Positions 49,521 through 53,648 of a DNA stretch of 64,000 nt are shown piece after piece; the stretch's first letter is position 1; each line of letters starts with the position of its first letter. The notes under the pieces are model-generated. The model was not told the DNA's origin. It did not search any database and worked only from the letters and a program-made list of their open reading frames with translations. This DNA is from Desulfobacterales bacterium (GTDB taxonomy: Bacteria; Desulfobacterota; Desulfobacteria; Desulfobacterales; JANQIE01). Where the stretch lies: the NCBI GenBank assembly GCA_028282295.1, contig JANQIE010000021.1, forward strand, positions 1 to 64,000. The letters run 5' to 3'. A program made the translations under genes and the position numbers.

Positions 49521-50324
49521 CTAATCCGGCTCGGCCGGATTAGGCCGTGGCGGATTCGACGCACGCCCCTGTCGGCCGTCCTCATAACCATCCTGATAAC
49601 ATTTGCCGGCGTACCAGTTGATCTGACGGTAGATGCCCCGGATGATGGCGACTTCCTTGGCCCTTAATTGCAGTCGCGTCAAAAAATGACGCAGGCGGTT
49701 CATCCAGTAATCCGGATTGTCCGGCAGGAGAAAATTGATGCGCACAAGAATGTCTTTTAGTTGCGCGTACATCCCGTCCAACTCGTGCCGGGCGGCCAGG
49801 CGGGGGGCGAACTCCTGCGTCGGGGGGCGGCTTGCCTGGAACAGGGCGTAGGAGACAATCAGTACGGCCTGGGCCAGATTGAGCGAGGCGAATTGGGCGG
49901 TGGGGATATTGACTAGTTTGTGACACAAGCGCAGATCGTCGTTGGTCAGCCCTTTATCTTCGGGACCGAACAAAAGGGCAATGCGGTTGTGCGGTAGCAA
50001 CGGAATCAGTTCCTGGGCCAGTTTTTCGGGTGAACCGATGACTTGACGCTGCCCCCCCAACCGTGCCGTGGTGCCGATGACATAGGTAAAGGCGGTCAGG
50101 GCGTCTTGCAGGGAGTCGGCGATGGTGATGCCGTCCACTACATCCGCCGCGCCTTTGGTGGCCATCATGCGCACCCGTTTAGGGTCGAAGTCCTCGGGCT
50201 GAACCACGACCAATTGTTCGATACCCATATTTTTGGCTGCACGGGCCGCCGCGCCGATATTTTCCGGAAAGCGGGGCCGGTGCAGCACAATGGCGATATG
50301 ATTCAGCTTGACCGCTACGGGCAT
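49521..50324 (-). CDS. TrmJ/SpoU-family RNA ribose methyltransferase
   Basis: A 267-residue protein of the TrmJ type. HIAIVLHRPRFPENIGAAARAAKNMG opens the SpoU domain. IALLFGPEDKGLTNDDLRLCHKLVNIPT and SLNLAQAVLIVSYALF form the knot. A helical C-terminal extension (about residues 165-255) follows. It is likely to 2'-O-methylate position 32 of tRNAs. The start ATG shares one base with the ndk stop, so the two genes form an operon. Confidence 0.85.
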   Translation of the reverse strand: MPVAVKLNHIAIVLHRPRFPENIGAAARAAKNMGIEQLVVVQPEDFDPKRVRMMATKGAADVVDGITIADSLQDALTAFTYVIGTTARLGGQRQVIGSPEKLAQELIPLLPHNRIALLFGPEDKGLTNDDLRLCHKLVNIPTAQFASLNLAQAVLIVSYALFQASRPPTQEFAPRLAARHELDGMYAQLKDILVRINFLLPDNPDYWMNRLRHFLTRLQLRAKEVAIIRGIYRQINWYAGKCYQDGYEDGRQGRASNPPRPNPAEPD

Positions 50325-50740
50325 TAACCGACCAATTCGAAACTATTGAAAAAGTACCCGATTTCAAAAGCCGCGGTTTCCGGCGCGTCGGAGCCGTGGA
50401 CGACATTTTTCTCAATGTCGGTGGCAAAATCACGCCGGATGGTGCCCTCAGCGGCCTCCTTGTAATTGGTGGCGCCCATCAGTTCGCGGTTTTTGGCGAT
50501 GACCTGGTTGCCTTCCAGCACCATGACCACCACCGGGCCGGAGGTCATGAATTGTGTCAGGCTGCCGAAAAAAGGGCGTTCCTTGTGCACGGCATAAAAT
50601 CCTTCGGCCTGTTTTTGTGTCATGTGCAGCATTTTCATGGCCACAATGCGGATATCGTTTTGTTCAAAGCGTTTGATCACTTCACCAATCAGGCCGCGGG
50701 AAACTCCGTCCGGTTTGATGATTGAGAGGGTTCGTTCCAT
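50324..50740 (-). CDS. ndk: Nucleoside diphosphate kinase
   Basis: 138 residues. The N-terminus is [23 protein letters not shown]. The active-site histidine is in the segment [21 protein letters not shown]. It equilibrates nucleoside tri- and diphosphates. Length and motif are those of bacterial Ndk. Divergent from the FmdB-like gene across about 165 bases. Confidence 0.97.
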
Positions 50741-50906
50741 GATGTGTCCTTTCTAATGTCCATTTTATAATGAATTCGTTTTGCCGGTGGCATACCAAAT
50801 GGCCGGTATGAAGTCAACTGCTGCGGCGAGGGATTTGGGACGTTGACAAACGGCGCACCAGTTTTTATTTAGTGTCATTAAAAATTAAAGGAGGTAGGTG
50901 GATCGT

Positions 50907-51401
50907 ATGCCGATTTACGAATTTTACTGCCAAGCGTGCCACATGATATTCAATTTTTTTTCAAAGACCGTGAATACAACCAAAGTGCCGGTTTGCCCGA
51001 AATGCCGTAAGGAAAAGCTGTCCCGCCAGGTATCGTTGTTTGCTGTTACCGGCAGGGCGAGTGAAGAGGGCGATATGGATGATTTGCCCTTTGATGAGAG
51101 TAAAATGGAGCAGGCGATGAACATGCTGGGCAAAGAAGCTGAGAACATCAACGACGACGACCCGCGGCAGGCGGCCGACTTGATGCGTAAATTTACCGAC
51201 CTGACCGGCGTGCAACTGGGACCGGGCATGCAGGAAGCCCTGCAGCGCATGGAGCAGGGCGAAGATCCGGAACAGGTCGAGGCCGAGATGGGGAATTTGC
51301 TTGAAAGCGAAGACCCCTTTGTCCTGTCGGGTCACAAAGCTGTCCCCAAATCACAACGGCAGGTCGCGCCGCTCAAAGATGAGACGTTGTACGACCTGTA
51401 G
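50907..51401 (+). CDS. FmdB-type zinc-ribbon protein
   Basis: About 164 residues. The N-terminus is an FmdB/Zn-ribbon_8 domain (MPIYEFYCQACHMIF, then VCPKCRKEKLSRQVS). The rest is acidic and helical and seems disordered (DMDDLPFDESKMEQAMNMLGKE). FmdB proteins are often small regulatory or putative regulatory ribbons. AAGGAGGT lies 11 bases before the ATG at 50907. A GTG at 50898 is only 2 bases from it, so it is rejected. Confidence 0.8.
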   Translation: MPIYEFYCQACHMIFNFFSKTVNTTKVPVCPKCRKEKLSRQVSLFAVTGRASEEGDMDDLPFDESKMEQAMNMLGKEAENINDDDPRQAADLMRKFTDLTGVQLGPGMQEALQRMEQGEDPEQVEAEMGNLLESEDPFVLSGHKAVPKSQRQVAPLKDETLYDL

Positions 51402-51435
51402 CCGCAGCCGCAGGGTGTTGAAAAGAGGAGGGGGG

Positions 51436-51966
51436 ATGAACAACGAAGTGCCGAAACGTATCGAGATACATCAAGGCGACATCACCACGCTGGCAGTGGA
51501 TGCAATTGTAAATGCCGCCAATCGGACTTTGCGGGGTGGCGGTGGTGTGGATGGCGCCATTCATCGCAAAGCCGGCCCGCAACTATTGGCTGAATGCAAA
51601 ACCATCGGTGGGTGCCCCACCGGTGAGGCGCGAATCACCAGAGGGTACAATCTGCCGGCTAAATTTGTCATTCACACCGTAGGGCCGATCTATTCCGGCA
51701 AACCCAAGGATGCGCACTTGCTGGAACAATGCTACCGCAACAGCTTGGCGTTGGCTGTGGCCCATCAAGCGGCCAGCGTTGCTTTTCCGGCGATCAGTTG
51801 CGGGGTGTACGGCTATCCGATCGAAGATGCCTGTCAAATTGCGTTAAATACTGCCTGCGATGTGTTGGCGACGGAATCAGGGATCGCGAAAGTTTTGTTT
51901 GTGCTCTTTTCGGACAGCGATTTTCAAGTTTACAGGAAACATTTGAAAGCACTTATTTCTGGATGA
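51436..51966 (+). CDS. Macro-domain ADP-ribose hydrolase
   Basis: About 176 residues, a single macro domain. IHQGDITTLAVDAIVNAANRTLRGGGGVDGAIHRKAG is the ADP-ribose pocket with the catalytic Asn and Asp. CPTGEARITRGYNLPAKFVIHTVGP and SVAFPAISCGVYGYP complete the fold. The MacroD type removes ADP-ribose from proteins or hydrolyses O-acetyl-ADP-ribose. GAGGAGG precedes the ATG. The last codons and stop (ISG, then TGA) lie inside a diverged family 1 repeat arm. Confidence 0.92.
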   Translation: MNNEVPKRIEIHQGDITTLAVDAIVNAANRTLRGGGGVDGAIHRKAGPQLLAECKTIGGCPTGEARITRGYNLPAKFVIHTVGPIYSGKPKDAHLLEQCYRNSLALAVAHQAASVAFPAISCGVYGYPIEDACQIALNTACDVLATESGIAKVLFVLFSDSDFQVYRKHLKALISG

Positions 51967-51969
51967 ACA

Positions 51970-52018
51970 CTAAGGGCTCGCGCCAAAAATGTGAAATTAT
52001 TTTTGCGCGAGCCCTAAA
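51970..52018. repeat. Minimal copy of palindromic repeat family 2
   Basis: A 49-bp element with only the terminal arms: TAAGGGCTCGCGCCAAAAA then TGTGAAATTATTTTTGCGCG and AGCCCTAA. It lacks the 130-base centre of the full copies. It sits next to a diverged family 1 arm (51953-51971). Confidence 0.8.
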
Positions 52019-52206
52019 TAGTGGCCGCTTGATTGCCGAATACATAGTGTAGCAGGTTGATCGGTTGGATGGGGATTCGGACGGGAATTGTCCATTGACA
52101 TTTGCAGCCGGTATAGTTAGCTTGCGGTTGCAGTAAAATGACTGGACGGCTGCCGTACGTTTACCCTTGGGGTTGGCAGTCGCATTTTTTTTAAGGAGGA
52201 ACATAC

Positions 52207-52512
52207 ATGCTGGAAGTCACTGCGTCGGCGACAGAACAAATTGCCGAATACTTTAAGGGCAAAGATGTAAAACCGATTCGCGTCTTTTTAAACGAAGGCG
52301 GATGAGGCGGCCCCGGTTTGGCCATGGCTCTGGACGAGCCTAAAGAAACCGATGAGACATTCGAGATTGAAGGATTTAGTTATATTGTTGACAAAGCACT
52401 TTTAGAAAAAGCCAAACCGATTAAAATCGATTTTTTGATCAATGGCTTCAAGCTGGATTGTGGCATCGATTTTGGTGCCGCCGGCTGTAACAGTTGCACC
52501 AGTTGCGGTTAG
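52207..52512 (+). CDS. HesB/IscA-like selenoprotein (in-frame UGA read as selenocysteine)
   Basis: A 101-residue frame read through one TGA (52303-52305, residue 33) to TAG. The local context is RVFLNEGG-U-GGPGLAMALDEP, the selenocysteine context known for HesB-like selenoproteins of deltaproteobacteria. Downstream sequence is in frame and conserved in type: FSYIVDKALLEKAKPIKIDF, then a cysteine cluster at residues 85, 94, 97 and 100 (CNSCTSCG). AAGGAGGAA lies 6-7 bases before the ATG. A hairpin fitting a bacterial SECIS follows the TGA, and a terminator follows the gene. Automated annotation would likely start at the TTG or ATG after the TGA and lose 37 residues. The function is uncertain; family members resemble iron-sulfur carrier proteins. 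Confidence 0.9.
52315..52340 (+). promoter_or_regulatory. Candidate bacterial SECIS hairpin
   Basis: Hand folding: GGTTTG (52315-52320) pairs with CGAGCC (52335-52340). A one-by-one mismatch follows, then CCA (52322-52324) pairs with TGG (52331-52333). The hexaloop is TGGCTC. The loop begins 20 bases after the UGA and has a G at its second position, consistent with the known bacterial SECIS layout. Confidence 0.65.
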
Positions 52513-52530
52513 ATTCCTGAATTGGATTGA

Positions 52531-52561
52531 AAAAGGCAATGCAAACGCATTGCCTTTTTTA
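52531..52561 (+). terminator. Intrinsic terminator after the selenoprotein gene
   Basis: AAAAGGCAATGC and GCATTGCC form a perfect stem around AAAC, followed by a T run. It starts 19 bases after the stop codon. Confidence 0.93.
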
Positions 52562-52928
52562 CATCTTGCCATCGCTGTGATAGTTTTCCGCGGCCCTAAC
52601 ATCTCTTCGGTGACGAGCCGCCCCTCGTATCCAAGGTACTGCCCGCCGGACAGACTTTTTTTGGGGTTTGATTGGGCGGCACGTAACGGCTTGTTCCTGT
52701 CCTGGTATCCGTGTTGCGTTTGAACGGATTCGTCTTGACGCTCCGTGGGTGACATGTTAACCGTGTTCTATTCGCTGAATGTCTGTTCAGTGAGAAGAAG
52801 CCTCAATATCCGATCGATGATTTCATTCCTTGCGCTGAGCCTGTCAATTCTTCACCGGCTTCCAAGCGACCCATATGCAAGATATATTGGTTGTAGTTTT
52901 ATGTAGCCTGCAAACGATGGAGGTACAG
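52562..52928. other. Intergenic region with a solo family 3 arm
   Basis: TTTTCCGCGGCCCTAA at about 52583-52599 matches one end of repeat family 3 without a partner. No gene, other repeat or clear promoter is seen in the rest of these 370 bases. Confidence 0.5.
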
Positions 52929-53648
52929 ATGGCATTATTGGAGTACGAGATTGATGAGAATGTTGCCATTCTAACCATGAGTAGCGGCGAGAATCGTTTT
53001 AATCCCGATTTTTTGACTGAGTTGATGACGCGGTTCGATGAAATCGAGCAGCAAACCGATGCTCGTGTGCTGGTTGTTAAATCGGCACATGAGAAAATTT
53101 TTTCGAACGGCATCGATTTAGAGTGGCTGCTGCCTTACATTCAAAAACGTGATGCCAAACGCTGCAAGGATTTTTTCTATCAATTGAACGATGTTTTTAA
53201 GCGGGTTTTGACCTATCCCCTGGTTACCATCGCCGCAATCAACGGGCACGTGTTTGCCGGCGGCGCCATTTTGTCGGGGGCCTTTGACTTTCGTTTTATG
53301 CGCGCTGACCGGGGCTATTTTTGTCTGCCGGAAGTCGATTTGGGGATACCTTTCCTGCCGGGAATGAATGCGCTGCTGCAAAAGGCGATTCCGTCTTACA
53401 AGCTCGATGAAATGCAATTGACCGGCAGGCGTTTGACCGCTGATGAATGTGAGGCCCACCATATCGTGGCCAGGGCGTGTCACGTTGATGAATTGATGTC
53501 CGTGGTCATGGAATTTGCCAAGCAATTGAACAAGGAACGTGCGGTTTTAGCGGAATTGAAGCTGCGCAGGGCCAAACCGATTCTGCATGCCATTGATGTT
53601 GAGGACCCCCCTTATATCGAAGGCGGCGCCTTTTACGTAATGGGGTGA
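52929..53648 (+). CDS. Enoyl-CoA hydratase/isomerase family protein
   Basis: 239 residues of the crotonase fold. The oxyanion-hole regions are VVKSAHEKIFSNGIDL and AAINGHVFAGGAILSGAFDFRFM. A glutamate in LPEVDLGIPF aligns with the catalytic position of delta3,delta2-enoyl-CoA isomerases. It would act on unsaturated fatty acyl-CoAs, with isomerase favoured over hydratase. GGAGG lies 5 bases before the ATG at 52929; a longer open frame from 52875 has no signal. Confidence 0.82.
   Translation: MALLEYEIDENVAILTMSSGENRFNPDFLTELMTRFDEIEQQTDARVLVVKSAHEKIFSNGIDLEWLLPYIQKRDAKRCKDFFYQLNDVFKRVLTYPLVTIAAINGHVFAGGAILSGAFDFRFMRADRGYFCLPEVDLGIPFLPGMNALLQKAIPSYKLDEMQLTGRRLTADECEAHHIVARACHVDELMSVVMEFAKQLNKERAVLAELKLRRAKPILHAIDVEDPPYIEGGAFYVMG

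Follow-up and report, generated by a model that had tools for sequence, protein, structure and literature searches.

HesB-like selenoproteins and the family of the new gene

IscA uses three cysteines as ligands. HesB-like selenoproteins have been catalogued in several bacteria, including Syntrophobacter, Syntrophus, Desulfovibrio, and Geobacter, and a change from selenocysteine (Sec) to cysteine has already been described in HesB-like proteins (PMC1794560). For the HesB-like selenoprotein of Methanococcus maripaludis, which mutagenesis combined with 75Se labelling brought to light, the function was described as unclear (PMC11097638). HesB-like proteins are also listed among the selenoproteins without an established biological role (PMC13188914), and we found no measured exact function for the family in the literature.

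The gene studied here lies at 52207..52512 on the forward strand of the window, by which we mean the whole stretch of 64,000 nucleotides that was analysed. It encodes 101 amino acids followed by UAG, with the start ATG at 52207-52209, an in-frame UGA at 52303-52305 (residue 33), and the stop at 52510-52512. The initial annotation had described a frame open on both sides of a single TGA and a strong ribosome binding site; indeed, there is no further stop between the ATG and the UAG, and a Shine-Dalgarno sequence, AAGGAGG(A), is read on the forward strand directly 5' of the ATG (52194..52200). Translation of 52207-52512 with read-through gives MLEVTASATEQIAEYFKGKDVKPIRVFLNEGG-U-GGPGLAMALDEPKETDETFEIEGFSYIVDKALLEKAKPIKIDFLINGFKLDCGIDFGAAGCNSCTSCG, in which Sec would sit in the context GG-U-GGPG (i.e., UGGP) and be followed by four cysteines, C85, C94, C97, and C100. 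Both the GG-U-GG context of HesB-like selenoproteins and the four downstream cysteines, which had been pointed out in the annotation, are thus present.

In a profile search, the protein matched NF038090 (IscA_HesB_Se) over positions 1-101 of 101 with 112.3 bits, above the curated cut-off of 85 bits. The 86 sequences of a diverse alignment matched this profile without exception. It shares with the family a full-length match above the cut-off and Sec or Cys at the same position, and we found no substantive difference. Compared with the HesB-like selenoproteins of TIGR01911 (HesB_rel_seleno; PMC13188914, PMC1794560), it has in common Sec in a UxGP motif, the HesB fold family, and anaerobic hosts; however, its score of 33.2 bits is below the cut-off of 66.35, so that it represents a related subfamily rather than a member by the TIGR01911 model. 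Likewise, it scored 36.1 bits against the A-type carrier model TIGR00049 (cut-off 58.8) and 27.4 bits against the IscA equivalog model (cut-off 150.6), and its matches to the SufA and ErpA models were weaker and below cut-off. A search of the genome with Pfam PF01521 gave no match, the selenoprotein scoring just below the cut-off. With E. coli IscA, SufA, and ErpA the protein shares the fold and the position of the first Cys ligand, but Sec replaces this Cys, most family members have a C-terminal CxxC where IscA has CxC, and the score is far under the equivalog cut-offs. In the literature, HesB-like selenoproteins are recognized by a UGA in UxGP and by homologues with Cys at that position. Both hold here, as distinct homologous sequences carry UGA (n = 110) or a Cys codon (n = 15) at the position of residue 33, which also agrees with the expectation that the codon before GGPG be Cys or Sec. 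The gene is an additional member of a catalogued selenoprotein family from anaerobic bacteria.

A probable intrinsic terminator, GGCAATGC-AAAC-GCATTGCC, lies at 52530..52560 on the forward strand, preceded by an A-tract and followed by a T-tract (fold -20.4 kcal/mol, z -7.4). It is absent from the output of a simple terminator scan, and it suggests that the transcript ends just 3' of the selenoprotein gene. The flanks (window positions 49521-53648) encode an RNA-methyltransferase-like protein, Ndk, an FmdB-type zinc-ribbon protein, a macro-domain protein, and an enoyl-CoA hydratase-like protein, in an order of which parts recur in close relatives only. A neighbourhood comparison over 81 loci found no conserved functional or operon partner, including for Fe-S biogenesis. 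The commonest neighbours (the FmdB-type zinc-ribbon protein, Ndk, and the macro-domain protein) occur in at most 24 of the 81 loci, a pattern that resembles synteny between closely related genomes. Besides two tRNAs, an Rfam scan of the 64-kb window found nothing.

Predicted fold, candidate ligand site, and role

The AlphaFold model adopts an IscA fold with a mean pLDDT of 82. In Foldseek, the top PDB hits were 1r94 (E. coli IscA, E = 2.8e-6) and 1x0g (IscA carrying a [2Fe-2S] cluster, E = 4.6e-6), and 1s98 was matched as well, all of which places the modelled protein in the IscA fold. The C-terminal tail (residues 91-101) has a pLDDT below 50, and the distance from Sec33 to C94 and C97 in the model is of low confidence. 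In the alignment, the UGA falls at the position of IscA's first conserved Cys. In the family alignment the Sec/Cys33 column and C94 are invariant and C97 is conserved in at least 90% of the sequences, while the tail itself varies, with mostly CxxC and otherwise CxC or spaced cysteines. Sec33 and the C94-x-x-C97 motif (codons at 52486..52497, forward strand), whose cysteines are predicted ligands together with Sec33, may thus form a cluster or iron site. The annotation had called a U-C redox or metal site plausible, and the conservation of these three residues is consistent with it.

In this fold, Sec33 would join C94 and C97 of the tail in a three-ligand site like that of the three cysteines of IscA, and the most likely task of the selenoprotein in its strictly anaerobic host would be to bind and pass on iron or an Fe-S cluster. 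Among 58 genomes sampled from the order, the source genome included, none had a canonical A-type carrier above the TIGR00049 cut-off, while eight control genomes passed. Many of the sub-threshold matches were the NF038090 genes themselves. The selenoprotein is therefore the only A-type-carrier-like protein found in these genomes. The source genome, which is listed as 100% complete, contains a NifU-type scaffold (NifU_N), and a SufB/SufD core was not found in it, although such a core is present in all 14 control genomes. In this genome, Fe-S clusters seem to be assembled on NifU-type scaffolds. Taking together the 58 genomes, the NifU scaffold, and the missing SufB/SufD, the best guess is a selenium-ligated carrier that would be placed downstream of a NifU-type scaffold in a host devoid of a canonical A-type carrier. 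We give a probability of about 0.6 to this explanation as a whole, i.e., a selenoprotein with an IscA fold that would act as a selenium-ligated anaerobic Fe-S carrier. Counting against it are the low confidence of the modelled tail that bears C94 and C97, the unimpaired nitrogen fixation of the M. maripaludis hesB-like disruption mutant (PMC11097638), and the lack of a conserved Fe-S operon partner.

A possibility that we take seriously without favouring it is that the protein is a real selenoprotein but works as a thiol/selenol redox enzyme or binds another metal or metalloid. Sec usually sits in redox sites, the tail is variable, and the HesB-like proteins figure among selenoproteins without an established role (PMC13188914), all of which would fit such a function; the IscA fold, the three-ligand pattern, and the lack of any other A-type carrier above cut-off in the sampled genomes of the order argue against it.

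The candidate bacterial SECIS and selenocysteine insertion

In the available model, a bacterial SECIS has a loop of 3-9 nt, a stem of 4-16 bp, a G in the first two loop positions, a spacing of 16-37 nt, and a minimum free energy of -7.5 kcal/mol or lower (PMC13188914). The hairpin GGCUC-UGGAC-GAGCC at 52326..52340 (forward strand) agrees with this description, with a loop of 5 nt, a stem of 5 bp, a G at loop position 2, and 25 nt between the UGA and the apical loop. Its predicted energy is -8.1 kcal/mol with short flanks and -6.9 kcal/mol for the bare 15-mer. Open frames that span a single UGA are common by chance: for 70 UGAs in the 64-kb window, at least 28 codons are open on the 5' side and at least 60 on the 3' side, and 4 of these 70 are followed by a hairpin of similar stability. 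Moreover, the single-sequence fold at the UGA showed no significant excess of stability over shuffled sequences (z -0.15 to -1.17), and we therefore relied on comparative evidence. A scan of the window for further Sec genes gave no convincing candidate.

The decisive support for the putative hairpin is comparative. All five stem pairs are present in 105 of the 110 Sec genes and in none of the 15 Cys genes, counts that come from related sequences and hence from non-independent events. Three codons of the hairpin are fixed or nearly so in Sec genes: Ala is GCU in 110/110, Leu is CUG in 110/110, and Glu is GAG in 107/110. In the remainder of these genes, GCU, CUG, and GAG account for 19%, 28%, and 34% of the Ala, Leu, and Glu codons, respectively, and codons 3 to 6 after the UGA vary freely. 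At residue 45, the common changes in Sec genes are Pro to Ser or Leu, which replace a G-C pair by G·U without breaking the stem; in Cys genes, this residue is mostly Lys. Kinship alone does not account for the difference that separates the hairpin codons from their neighbours and from the Cys paralogues. The hairpin with a G-bearing loop that the annotation had placed 20 bases after the UGA does begin there and is preserved in Sec genes only. Unlike the Cys HesB-like protein of Desulfitobacterium hafniense, which has a remnant SECIS (PMC1794560), the 15 Cys forms lack the hairpin.

That the hairpin simply follows from conservation of the peptide MALDEPK, and is no recoding signal, is very improbable. 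The peptide motif is indeed conserved, the single-sequence fold is not significant, and five pairs at that place survive in 6.6% of synonymous recodings, yet it is the codons, beyond the residues, that are fixed (GCU in all Sec genes against 19% elsewhere) next to neighbours that vary, and they are relaxed in the Cys genes, where Pro45 is mostly replaced by Lys. At the level of codons, the difference between Sec genes and Cys genes provides a clean natural demonstration of a SECIS.

The host has the machinery that the annotation had implied. In the assembly (5.46 Mb in 326 contigs, 1% contamination), genome searches found a tRNA-Sec with anticodon UCA (72 bits), SelA (602 bits), SelB (359 bits), and SelD (365 bits), the set expected of a host of bacterial selenoproteins. 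The SelD gene is likewise a selenoprotein gene, interrupted by one in-frame UGA; a hairpin with a GG loop, AAGCCC-GGUC-GGGCUU, can be read in it (L018 1528-1560) with the loop 17 nt after the UGA. SelB bearing Sec-tRNA(Sec) would bind the hairpin 3' of the UGA and so deliver Sec at position 33. While an open frame and a hairpin alone are insufficient, homology and the comparative codon evidence are far more than chance would offer, and insertion of Sec at UGA 52303-52305 (forward strand), strongly supported by the comparison of UGA and Cys homologues and by the invariant U/C column, is in our judgement nearly certain. UGA is a stop in the standard code, but a pseudogene whose downstream half is decaying has next to no probability, as invariant residues are retained in that half, the Sec machinery is complete, the hairpin is preserved, and the same UGA in 109 other homologues already contradicts it.

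Sec and Cys forms and Fe-S delivery in the order

A member of NF038090 above cut-off was found in 168 of 194 genomes of the order, and among the matches listed, 14 were without an internal stop and all others had one UGA. Similarly, UGA occupied the same position in nearly all of 80 loci from named genomes, mostly of Desulfobacterales, Desulfosarcina, and Syntrophales, with Krumholzibacteriota and Clostridia also represented. In a tree, two to three changes or more are needed to explain the Cys forms, the majority of which group together as extra paralogues. Sec and Cys forms co-occur in several genomes: in one (G162), a Cys form and a Sec form lie in tandem (L049 1501-1812 and 2015-2317; G162:C16:55359-56163), and in several others they are on different contigs. 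Such pairs could be a selenium-dependent switch. When Cys forms were compared with loss of SelB, this protein was above cut-off in 162 of the 194 genomes, among them most of the genomes that carry a Cys form, and its distribution said little about the Cys forms.

A-type carriers are missing in many delta-proteobacteria, and how Fe-S clusters are delivered in organisms without them was left as an open question (PMC2682760). In this order, where a protein of the HesB-like selenium family is near-universal, mostly in its Sec form, and none of the sampled genomes has a canonical carrier above cut-off, the question can be tested directly. That canonical A-type carriers are missing throughout the order and that a Sec-ligated HesB-like protein does their job is a tentative proposal, which we consider rather unlikely as it stands; if it were true, Fe-S delivery in an order of anaerobes would depend on selenium.
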